From NCBI GenBank assembly GCA_016789485.1, contig JAEURE010000062.1, positions 1 to 10,822 on the forward strand: a stretch of DNA of 10,822 bases, written 5' to 3'. Both the position numbers and the translations under genes were made by a program. Source of the stretch: Anaerolineales bacterium (GTDB taxonomy: Bacteria; Chloroflexota; Anaerolineae; Anaerolineales; Villigracilaceae). Position 1 is the first letter of the stretch; each line of letters opens with the position of its first letter. Below, piece by piece: positions 7,100 to 9,173 of the stretch. Below the pieces are notes generated by a model, which saw only the letters and a program-made list of their open reading frames with translations, was not told where the DNA came from and did no database searches.

Positions 7100-8260
7100 A
7101 TGAAACGTACCTTTCTCAACGTACTCAAACGACTTTTTCCGTTTTTTTTTCGAGTTGTGTTCGGTTTGCGTGATTGGGTGAAGAGCATCCCTGCATGGAT
7201 ACAACTTTCCGTGCTTCAAAAAAGCGGAGATGGTATTGCGGTTTCTTATCTCAGTTCACGCTTTCCCAAGCCGCCTATAAGCCGCAACGAGTTCGCGCAT
7301 GGCGGCGCAGTCAAGTTGACCTACCTTGCGGAAAATTTCCCGCATCATTTTCCTGTGGCAAACCTGTTGTATGCTGTTAGTAGCGTTGCACATCCTTTGC
7401 AAATGGAAATTCTCCAAACAGCAAAACACAAGGAATTGCAGATCGTTGTCAATCAAAACGGTGTTGCCTTCCCTGCATGGGACGGCGCAAATTATGAAGC
7501 GTCGAACCGGCCCTTGAAGCGCATCATCGCCTTTGCGGACTTCATTATCTATCAAAGTCAATTTTGCAAAGACAGCGCGGAACGATACATCTCCCCGCCG
7601 ACCGTGCCGCATGAAATCATTTACAACCCTGTGGATACCCGCCTCTTCTCACCCGAAGCCTGCCCGGCGAGACCCGCAGCCTTGACCTTGCTTTTGGGCG
7701 GCAACCAATACGAAAAGTACCGCCTTGAACTGGCGTTGCAAACGCTCAAAGCGATTCACCGTGATGTGCCAAATGCAAAGTTGATCGTCACTGGTAACCT
7801 CTGGCTTCCACGCCATGAAGCCGAAGCATGGACAACGCAAGCCCTGCATGAGATGCAATTGACGGAACATGTTACCTTCACGGGAACCTATGCCCAAAAG
7901 GATGCGCCTGCTTTGTATTCACAGGCTCACCTTTTGCTCCACACCAAATATGCCGACCCGTCTCCAGGTTTGGTCTTGGAGGCGATGGCACTAGGAATGC
8001 CTGTTGTCTATTTGAATAACGGCGGTGTTCCAGAATTGGTCGGGGATGCGGGAATCGGCGTCCATGTGGAACATGATTGGGACAGAATCAATCTGCCAAA
8101 TCCGCAGGCAATGGCAGATATGGTGATGCAAATCTATGTCCGCCGCGAAGAATTTTCGCAGAAGGCACGTCAACGCGCGGCGGATTTGTTCTCGCTGGAA
8201 AAGTTTGTAGAAAGGCATAAAGAAATTTTTGAGAAGGTTTTAGGTGACAGTCACCTTTAA
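7100..8260 (+). CDS. Glycosyltransferase family 4
   Basis: This 386-residue protein starts at ATG 7100, two bases after the previous stop. A TTG at 7070 in the same frame overlaps the previous gene and is less likely. The N-terminus is basic and phenylalanine-rich, with a run of nine Ts at 7142-7150, and may contact the membrane. Mid-protein NPVDTRLFSP is the GT4 inter-domain linker. The donor-binding domain shows LTLLLGGNQYEKYR, AKLIVTGNLW, and KYADPSPGLVLEAMALGMPV with a D286-x7-E294 version of the E-x7-E motif, then YLNNGGVPELVGDAG. This is the same C-terminal arrangement as the GT4 at 4301-5269. The last residues, GDSHL, are encoded by the left arm of a perfect palindrome whose centre is the stop codon, so the natural C-terminus may have been altered by that element. 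The donor is unknown. Confidence 0.87.
   Translation: MKRTFLNVLKRLFPFFFRVVFGLRDWVKSIPAWIQLSVLQKSGDGIAVSYLSSRFPKPPISRNEFAHGGAVKLTYLAENFPHHFPVANLLYAVSSVAHPLQMEILQTAKHKELQIVVNQNGVAFPAWDGANYEASNRPLKRIIAFADFIIYQSQFCKDSAERYISPPTVPHEIIYNPVDTRLFSPEACPARPAALTLLLGGNQYEKYRLELALQTLKAIHRDVPNAKLIVTGNLWLPRHEAEAWTTQALHEMQLTEHVTFTGTYAQKDAPALYSQAHLLLHTKYADPSPGLVLEAMALGMPVVYLNNGGVPELVGDAGIGVHVEHDWDRINLPNPQAMADMVMQIYVRREEFSQKARQRAADLFSLEKFVERHKEIFEKVLGDSHL
7142..7150 (+). repeat. Homopolymer run of nine Ts inside a glycosyltransferase start region
   Basis: Nine consecutive Ts encode Phe15-Phe17 near the N-terminus of the GT4 protein. Runs of this length can slip during replication or transcription, which would shift the frame early in the gene. 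Confidence 0.8.
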
Positions 8261-8274
8261 GGTGACTGTCACCT
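8242..8274. repeat. Perfect 33-base palindrome with nested palindromic arms (REP-like or regulatory hairpin)
   Basis: The left arm AGGTGACAGTCACCTT (8242-8257) and right arm AAGGTGACTGTCACCT (8259-8274) are exact reverse complements around one central T (8258). Each arm contains its own inverted repeat, GGTGAC-x-GTCACC. The stop codon TAA (8258-8260) of the upstream GT4 gene lies at the centre, and the next ATG follows eight bases after the palindrome. As RNA it could form one long hairpin or two small ones. No T tract follows, so it is not a standard intrinsic terminator. It may be a REP-like mobile repeat, an operator, or an mRNA stability or attenuation hairpin. The sequence alone does not decide between these. 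Confidence 0.9.
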
Positions 8275-8282
8275 CTGTCAAC

Positions 8283-9173
8283 ATGAAACTTTCCGTCATC
8301 ATTTGCACCCGCAACCGCTTCGACGATTTCACGAAGACCCTTCCATCCATCGCCGCGCAAACCCGCCTGCCCGATGAGTTGGTCGTCGTTGATTCGTCGG
8401 ATGAGAAAAAATTGGAAACACACCTCGAAGCAGTACAAACGCCCTTTCCCATTCACTATTTCCATACCGCACCTGGGCTGACGCTTCAGCGCAACCACGG
8501 CATCCGTGAAAGCGTAGGCGACCTGCTTTTCTTCTTCGATGACGATGTAGATTTGGATGCAAACTATCTCGCCGAAGTGGAAAGTGTATTTGCGAATGAT
8601 GTGAAGAAAACCATCGGCGCAGTCGGCGGGAAGATTGTGAACAGTCCACCGCAGACCGTTCGCCTGAAATTTGAGACATTTCTCTTTGGTTTGATTCGCA
8701 TGATCTTCGGCGTAGTCGGAACCCGCAACGGGAAATTCTATCCCTCTGGTATGCCATCACATCCACGCCCGTACCAGCCCAGCGGATTCATCGAATGCCT
8801 CTCAGGCTGTTGCATGGCGTTTCGGCGAGAAGTGTTCGAGAAAGCCATATTTGATGAAAACCTCGCTCGCTACGGCTTGATGGAAGATGTGGATATCTCC
8901 AAACAAACGATGGATGCTGGCTATAAAATCTGGTATCAAACCTCCGCAACCCTCGTACACAACGAAAGTACGATGAACCGCCTCAACATCCAGCAGTGGG
9001 CGGAGATGAGCGTGGTCAATTATGATTACCTGTTTCGCAAGAGTTGGGCTCGTGACGCATGGCGTTGGTTGTTTTATTATTGGGCGCTGCTTGGTTTGTT
9101 TGTTGTCAATTTTCACAGCCTTAAAGGCTTGAAAGGTACGTTCAACGGCGTGAAGAAAGTTTTCGGTAAATGA
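8283..9173 (+). CDS. Glycosyltransferase family 2
   Basis: This protein has 296 residues starting at ATG 8283, immediately before LSVIICTRNRFDD, the canonical GT2 first strand. The frame extends upstream to a GTG at 8244, but those 13 codons lie in the palindrome. GT-A features are clear: VVDSSD at the nucleotide side, LQRNHGI, the metal-binding FFFDDDVDLD (D86-D88), LSGCCMAFRREVFE (from about residue 173, with paired Cys176-Cys177), and the ED acceptor motif MEDVDIS (E201-D202). A likely membrane-associated hydrophobic segment spans about 262-282 (WLFYYWALLGLFVVNF), and a shorter hydrophobic patch near 130-143 may also touch the bilayer. It is an inverting sugar transferase working at the cytoplasmic face; the donor is not identifiable. 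No clear ribosome site lies before the ATG, and the hairpin may influence its translation. The end overlaps the next gene by four bases. Confidence 0.88.
   Translation: MKLSVIICTRNRFDDFTKTLPSIAAQTRLPDELVVVDSSDEKKLETHLEAVQTPFPIHYFHTAPGLTLQRNHGIRESVGDLLFFFDDDVDLDANYLAEVESVFANDVKKTIGAVGGKIVNSPPQTVRLKFETFLFGLIRMIFGVVGTRNGKFYPSGMPSHPRPYQPSGFIECLSGCCMAFRREVFEKAIFDENLARYGLMEDVDISKQTMDAGYKIWYQTSATLVHNESTMNRLNIQQWAEMSVVNYDYLFRKSWARDAWRWLFYYWALLGLFVVNFHSLKGLKGTFNGVKKVFGK

Follow-up and report, generated by a model that had tools for sequence, protein, structure and literature searches.

A 33-nt nested palindrome at a glycosyltransferase gene junction as a probable RAYT-linked mobile repeat in Anaerolineales

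TIRtrons/TIRYTs were described as RAYT-like genes located between long inverted repeats unrelated to the GTAG REPs; according to the available text of that study, some of these TIRs are self-complementary and some form repeat families, and double palindromic TIRs are named in a figure legend (Di Nocera 2013, PMC3733652). In the available part of another study (Quentin 2018, PMC6006769), TnpAREP subclasses 2.2, 2.4, 2.5, 2.7, and 2.8 were associated with GT[AG]G REPs, subclass 2.6 and class 3 with atypical structures, and subclasses 2.1 and 2.3 with no REP. For Escherichia coli TnpAREP, the GTAG motif was reported as crucial, and single-strand excision and joining were attributed to this HuH tyrosine enzyme, as far as the accessible portion of PMC8266576 goes. 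The element described here is similar to the REPINs with RAYTs of Bertels and Rainey (2011, PMC3116915, available part) in that an inverted doublet of palindromic units forms one hairpin, is dispersed, and is tied to RAYTs. Searches of the open literature with GTGACAGTCAC returned no paper on bacterial repeats, as judged by title; RAYT with Chloroflexi returned PMC3733652 and PMC6006769 alone; nested palindromes with transposase returned plant work only; and REPIN with RAYT and further terms returned nothing published since 2020. Because the search covered the open literature alone, we make no claim that the architecture is unpublished.

In the window (the whole 10,822-nt stretch of DNA that was analyzed), an inverted-repeat search returned two 16-nt arms (8242–8257 and 8259–8274) that were 100% complementary, with no mismatch and 1 nt between them (Table 1). 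A single further inverted repeat, with 10-nt arms, was listed within 100 bases of the palindrome. Both GGTGAC-A/T-GTCACC 13-mers were exact. When folded as single-stranded DNA, the hairpin (15 bp and a 3-nt loop) reached −16.8 kcal/mol (z = −7.3), and 0 of 200 shuffles were as good. The longest odd-palindrome arm was 16 nt in the window, versus a maximum of 11 and a mean of 6.7 when the window was mononucleotide-shuffled 200 times, confirming that the 33-base palindrome is real and far beyond chance. The GT4 stop codon TAA (8258–8260) starts on the symmetry center (8258), and the GT2 ATG (8283–8285) lies eight bases beyond the element, which ends at 8274. The original prediction of a perfect 33-base nested palindrome, improbable by chance, with the stop codon at its center and an eight-base gap before the next ATG, was therefore accurate on all these points. 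In-frame GTG codons of GT2 at 8244 and 8262 fall within the element; GT2 homologues begin at ATG.

Table 1. Position of the palindromic element, its parts, and the adjoining genes in the window.
Feature	Position	Strand	Basis
Palindromic element of 33 nt (15-bp stem, 3-nt loop)	8242..8274		Exact inverted repeat; predicted hairpin; core shared with other genomic sites and relatives
Arm 1, AGGTGACAGTCACCT, itself an odd palindrome	8242..8256		Sequence; exact 13-mer
Loop of 3 nt	8257..8259		Fold
Arm 2, AGGTGACTGTCACCT, reverse complement of arm 1	8260..8274		Sequence; exact 13-mer
GT4 codons and stop apparently derived from the element (GDSHL-TAA)	8243..8260	+	Such an end in 0/10 homologues
GT4-type glycosyltransferase gene, upstream neighbor	7100..8260	+	PF00534, PF13692
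GT2-type glycosyltransferase gene, downstream neighbor	8283..9173	+	PF00535; ORF list; junctions of relatives

The palindrome is a member of a dispersed repeat family. Searching the source genome and its relatives for the 13-base core, as the original prediction had advised, yielded five exact 13-mers in the source MAG (G000; 2.83 Mb in 477 contigs, 75% complete) and the single 13-mer in 33 of 61 genomes (reversed control, one match in each of five genomes). With up to two mismatches, the single 13-mer was hardly more frequent in G000 than its reversed control (74 versus 53), and for this reason family counts rest on doublets. These were defined by the pattern GTGACWGTCACY-N3..11-RGTGACWGTCAC, which demands no pairing between arms; the reversed pattern served as a control. 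Doublets were found in 41 of the 61 genomes, including G000 with five (control, 0/61). By group, they occurred in 35 of 37 genomes of the genus (0–31 per genome) and in six of the 24 others of the order. In a phylum-wide sample, 16 of 400 genomes had a doublet, and 15 of these were among the 25 genomes of the window's own family. Viral contigs gave 0 matches to the strict doublet, and the plasmid collection gave just two 29-base matches, at E = 1. The elements were mainly extragenic: 11 of 30 were wholly within an ORF of at least 150 aa, versus a fraction of 0.707 for positions drawn at random from these loci, a crude measure based on mechanical ORFs.

Some family members showed other arrangements. 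In G054 (C583 and C9), doublets were paired 77 bases apart, and in C583 the pair recurred after 615 bases. Wider forms, in which the starts of the two arms were 45–53 bases apart, were observed in L040, L041, and L025, and the T/A order of the centers was reversed in L025. Two contigs of the source MAG (C246 and C463; L007 and L016) had common flanks in opposite orientation, both with the palindrome and with different loops; they are possibly a duplicated region or two assembly variants.

GT4 orthologues with 78–85% identity were found in eight same-genus genomes. In six of them (L178, L179, L180, L181, L183, and L184), the GT4/GT2 junction was uninterrupted, and the GT2 ATG either overlapped the GT4 stop or directly abutted it (for example, VLNS-TGATGAAA). 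An alignment of the GT4 C-terminus, also advised at the outset, showed the GDSHL end in 0 of 10 homologues (these eight and two with 57–58% identity). Given the uninterrupted junctions and the absence of GDSHL from the homologues, the insertion appears to have supplied five codons and the stop, so that, going by the sequence, GT4 would have received GGT GAC AGT CAC CTT TAA from the element. The bases to the right of the element differed from those of the relatives at the junction. The two remaining orthologues (L182 and L185) had other, unrelated palindromic inserts at the same junction, and the L182 insert also rewrites the GT4 end; we noticed from these inserts that the junction seems to be a tolerated landing place.

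Empty sites were also present at a second locus (G000:C423), which was compared with its genus-mates (rows L277 to L289). Among these rows, the full element was found in G000 alone. One arm was retained in L278 and L279, and no palindrome was present in L281, L283, and L286. Another palindrome occurred in L282, L284, and L285, with GTAG-like ends in L285, and other inserts occurred in L280, L287, and L289; L288 does not reach the site. Neither site, the one in the window nor C423, showed a target-site duplication, although their flanks have diverged, and no exact cut points were seen.

In relatives, copies of the palindrome flank RAYT genes. A Pfam Y1_Tnp search gave matches in 56 of 61 genomes (among the matches listed), and 40 Y1 loci were read from the matches listed, mostly frames of approximately 140–290 aa, with most IS200-like frames and those of 510–600 aa left out. 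Seven of the 40 encoded proteins 62–100% identical to the reference copy of G010, and the palindrome lay on either side of all seven genes, in some cases as a degenerate or single-arm copy. Not all of these flanks were intact: L080 had a single arm downstream, and L082 and L106 had mismatched copies, with wider spacing in L106. The other 33 Y1 loci had no doublet of the GTGAC family and none was flanked on both sides; among them, L088 had one exact arm at a distance of approximately 3 kb, and single arms with one mismatch occurred in L112 and L116. The linked RAYT protein has the HYH and YIHxNP motif columns in the alignment, scored above the cut-off for PF01797, and matched in a profile search the solved relative TnpArep 4er8 (E = 1.6e-7). 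All 12 aligned RAYT members matched NF047646 (REP_Tyr_transpos) at E = 0.001 or better, the G010 protein scoring below the curated cut-off (59.6 versus 80 bits). In Pfam, Y1_Tnp was the only domain found in the G010 protein, with no C-terminal HTH domain.

Same-genus genomes with the RAYT had more doublets (median 15, n = 6: 31, 15, 14, 16, 15, and 2) than those without (median 5, n = 31; one-sided P = 0.009). The 75% complete source MAG gave no match to a G010-type RAYT, and no such RAYT was found beside the palindrome there. At least 12 doublets each were counted in G014, G018, G021, G029, and G031, which have no RAYT of at least 62% identity; outside the genus, G042 had 22 doublets with a weak RAYT match and G054 had 12 with no RAYT match at E = 0.001. 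Judging from these counts, repeats can be numerous where no cognate RAYT is visible, several of these genomes being incomplete.

Further observations concerned the Y1 loci. A gene beside the RAYT, between two palindrome copies, was present in L079 (2124–2678, 184 aa) and L081 (823–1371, 182 aa); the two are alike by eye, the L079 copy had no Pfam match, and the gene is possibly a passenger. Other Y1 transposase genes of the genus (L113, L114, L115, L116, L168, L110, and L112) had their own, different palindromes (for example, AGGTCACGCTTCAAGCGTGACCT and GTCACGTCTGTGACGTGAC), with GTAG-like ends near L112. Many genomes (for example, G000:C477) had an additional frame of approximately 510–610 aa with a Y1_Tnp domain; in L090, the sole copy of this kind that was read, no such palindrome was found within the stretch.

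The arrangement extended to more distant RAYTs. Named genomes were scanned with an alignment of 12 RAYTs, and the best 80 of at least 537 relatives were kept. Hairpins with a stem of at least 12 were found within 200 bp of the gene in 46 of these 80 loci (on both sides in 30), versus 29 of 1086 pieces taken from these loci as controls; the other 34, some of which lie close to contig ends, lacked a hairpin of this kind over that distance. GTGAC-type elements lay near the gene in L197–L200 (67–82% identity) and L210 (56%), and no hairpin was found in L201, L203, and L206 (58–59%). The loop was 3 nt in 69 of 92 hairpins of the RAYT-near regions. In 38 loci, 65 elements had a 3-nt loop and a stem of at least 13, and their arms averaged 5.98 of 7 internal pairs, versus 1.85 when shuffled. 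A copy lay within the RAYT frame, at approximately +199 to +235 and with the frame unbroken, in 11 of the 80 loci. Among 60 GTGAC elements, G and T were rare at the two places before the A-R foot. A 5′ GT[AG]G tag at the hairpin foot was looked for and was nearly absent (GTAG or GTGG at 4 of 138 ends of RAYT-near 33-mers); the element is therefore no canonical GTAG REP. Records with nested arms were labeled Chloroflexota, Cyanobacteria, Marinimicrobia, and others, although MAG labels may be wrong. The RAYT set included cyanobacterial loci with 33-mers (L245, L250, L251, L253, L257, and L268). Small dispersed repeats of cyanobacteria are reportedly very small and mobile, going by the title of a 2008 work by Elhai, and the likeness to these loci is one of title alone.

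Arm letters and RAYTs diverged together. Near related RAYTs, the arms ranged from GTGACAGTCAC via GTGCAATGCAC and GTGCCAGGCAC to ACCTCCGAGGT, ACTTCCGAAGT, and AGAAACCCGGTTTCT, and the letters included GTGAC.GTCAC, GTGCA.TGCAC, GTGCC.GGCAC, ACCTC.GAGGT, ACTTC.GAAGT, and others. Arm distance was correlated with RAYT distance (Mantel rho = 0.592, 0 of 5000 permutations), and the median arm difference rose from 1/15 below a protein distance of 0.3 to 9/15 at 0.55–0.65. We tentatively suggest that an unnamed, widespread RAYT branch uses a minimal tag-free REPIN with a fixed 15-3-15 layout and nearly self-palindromic arms, the letters of which would be a recognition code co-evolving with the transposase. 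The correlation could also stem from linked common descent without recognition.

We consider it very probable (approximately 85%) that the palindrome is a RAYT-linked, nonautonomous mobile repeat that inserted between GT4 and GT2 and gave GT4 a new ending, and we interpret it as a REPIN/TIR-like element that is very compact and untagged. A REP/MITE-like repeat that jumped in and supplied GDSHL and the stop had been one of the readings first offered, and it is borne out by the dispersed copies, the RAYT linkage in relatives, and the empty sites. The covariation along the hairpin, described below, and the joint divergence of arms and RAYTs also speak for the mobile repeat. The element would consist of two 15-nt mini-palindromes in inverted orientation, separated by a 3-nt spacer and pairing into one 15-bp hairpin. 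Its cognate enzymes would form a clade of REP-associated tyrosine (Y1/HuH) transposases, which occurs in genomes of the same genus and also outside it, and a RAYT of this clade is presumably, or was once, present in the source lineage. The RAYT would cut and join the hairpin as single-stranded DNA, as an analogy with E. coli TnpAREP and IS200/IS605 suggests. A copy would have inserted between GT4 and GT2 of the glycan operon, in place of a tight or overlapping stop/start junction, and would have left GT4 with the ending GDSHL-stop. Its likely local effect is that two closely coupled genes were separated, a change that the host tolerated.

It is very improbable that the element is instead an RNA hairpin that was retained because it modulates translation or stability between GT4 and GT2. 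A strong RNA hairpin is predicted at the junction (−33.8 kcal/mol for 93 nt, z = −4.6) and two other species have other palindromes there, but the element is absent from six of the eight close orthologues, and an RNA role would be a side effect and not the origin. No promoter- or terminator-like site was found at the element, which has no U tail; the window had no match in Rfam; and the predicted access to the GT2 start region was about equal with and without the element (0.41 and 0.36). The earlier proposal of an RNA hairpin tuning the downstream genes was not supported by these results. A hairpin hiding the GT2 start was suggested by the MFE and unsupported by pairing probabilities. An effect of the predicted hairpin on GT2 is possible but unsupported.

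Highly improbable is a tandem operator, in which each 13-mer palindrome would bind a dimeric regulator and the copies would mark a regulon. Each arm is near-palindromic and some copies are directly upstream of a start codon (L008, L013, L027, and L028), but copies flank RAYT genes, the sites vary among close relatives, and the letters covary along the long hairpin. Of the 60 cells formed by the outer and inner end letters of 30 doublets from the pattern search, 57 were paired along the 33-nt hairpin, versus 8 of 60 within arms, and 10,000 partner permutations gave at most 43 of 60 paired cells. When all 54 doublets read were used, partly chosen for symmetric arms, the values were 99 of 108 and 22 of 108, respectively. 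The arm centers were A followed by T in 29 of the 30 doublets and had the opposite order in the remaining one, complementary every time. Base changes thus keep the long hairpin and not the symmetry of each arm, which is evidence against the operator that the original prediction had listed. Since within-arm pairing is rare, the window copy, in which both arms are symmetric, belongs to a minority within the family.

Imperfect palindromes are made perfect by template switching, and such correction could help to keep the arms matched and could account for part of the covariation; the covariation therefore marks the unit and is no proof of selection. That the palindrome arose in place by this route, without insertion, is scarcely credible, being hard to hold with an identical 29-nt core (GTGACAGTCACCTTTAAGGTGACTGTCAC) at several sites in G014, G062, and other genomes and with junctions of relatives that contain no seed of it.

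Read as a RAYT-linked mobile repeat, the lone palindrome attests to a repeat system of this kind in Anaerolineales, in which transposases and palindromes form a natural series of pairs. Insertion of the repeat probably rewrote a gene end and unlinked two tightly coupled glycan-operon genes; different palindromes occupy this junction in two other species. If the recognition-code reading is true, a comparison of RAYT pairs could reveal the residues that recognize particular bases when the GTAG guide is absent. The system bears on how RAYTs handle palindromes lacking GTAG, the motif described as crucial for E. coli TnpAREP in the available text of PMC8266576.

Compared with the available part of PMC3116915, in which simulated REPIN doublets were 71 and 110 bp long, the element is 33 nt in total with a 3-nt spacer, has no GTAG tag, and has few copies per genome (0–31 in the genus); the single arms of L278 and L279 resemble remnants. 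The RAYTs share the HuH and Y---NP motifs with the TnpAREP proteins in the available text of PMC6006769. In that text, subclass 2.8 has, as here, NHYH and a length near 199, a likeness judged by motif and length, and part of subclass 2.1 has F[QE] and YIHxNP, also as here, a likeness judged by motif; the C-terminal HTH of subclass 2.1 was not found in the G010 RAYT. In-frame REP copies inside the gene, described in that text for 2.4 and some 2.8, correspond to the 11 of 80 named loci noted above, although GT[AG]G ends are typical of the REPs in 2.4 and 2.8, in contrast to the untagged 33-mers here. As in the TIRtrons/TIRYTs of the available part of PMC3733652, a RAYT-like gene lies between inverted repeats unrelated to GTAG REPs. 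The GGGGWSAS motif given there is absent from the GTGAC arms, and the 15-3-15 nested architecture may be among the double palindromic TIRs named in that part of Di Nocera 2013.
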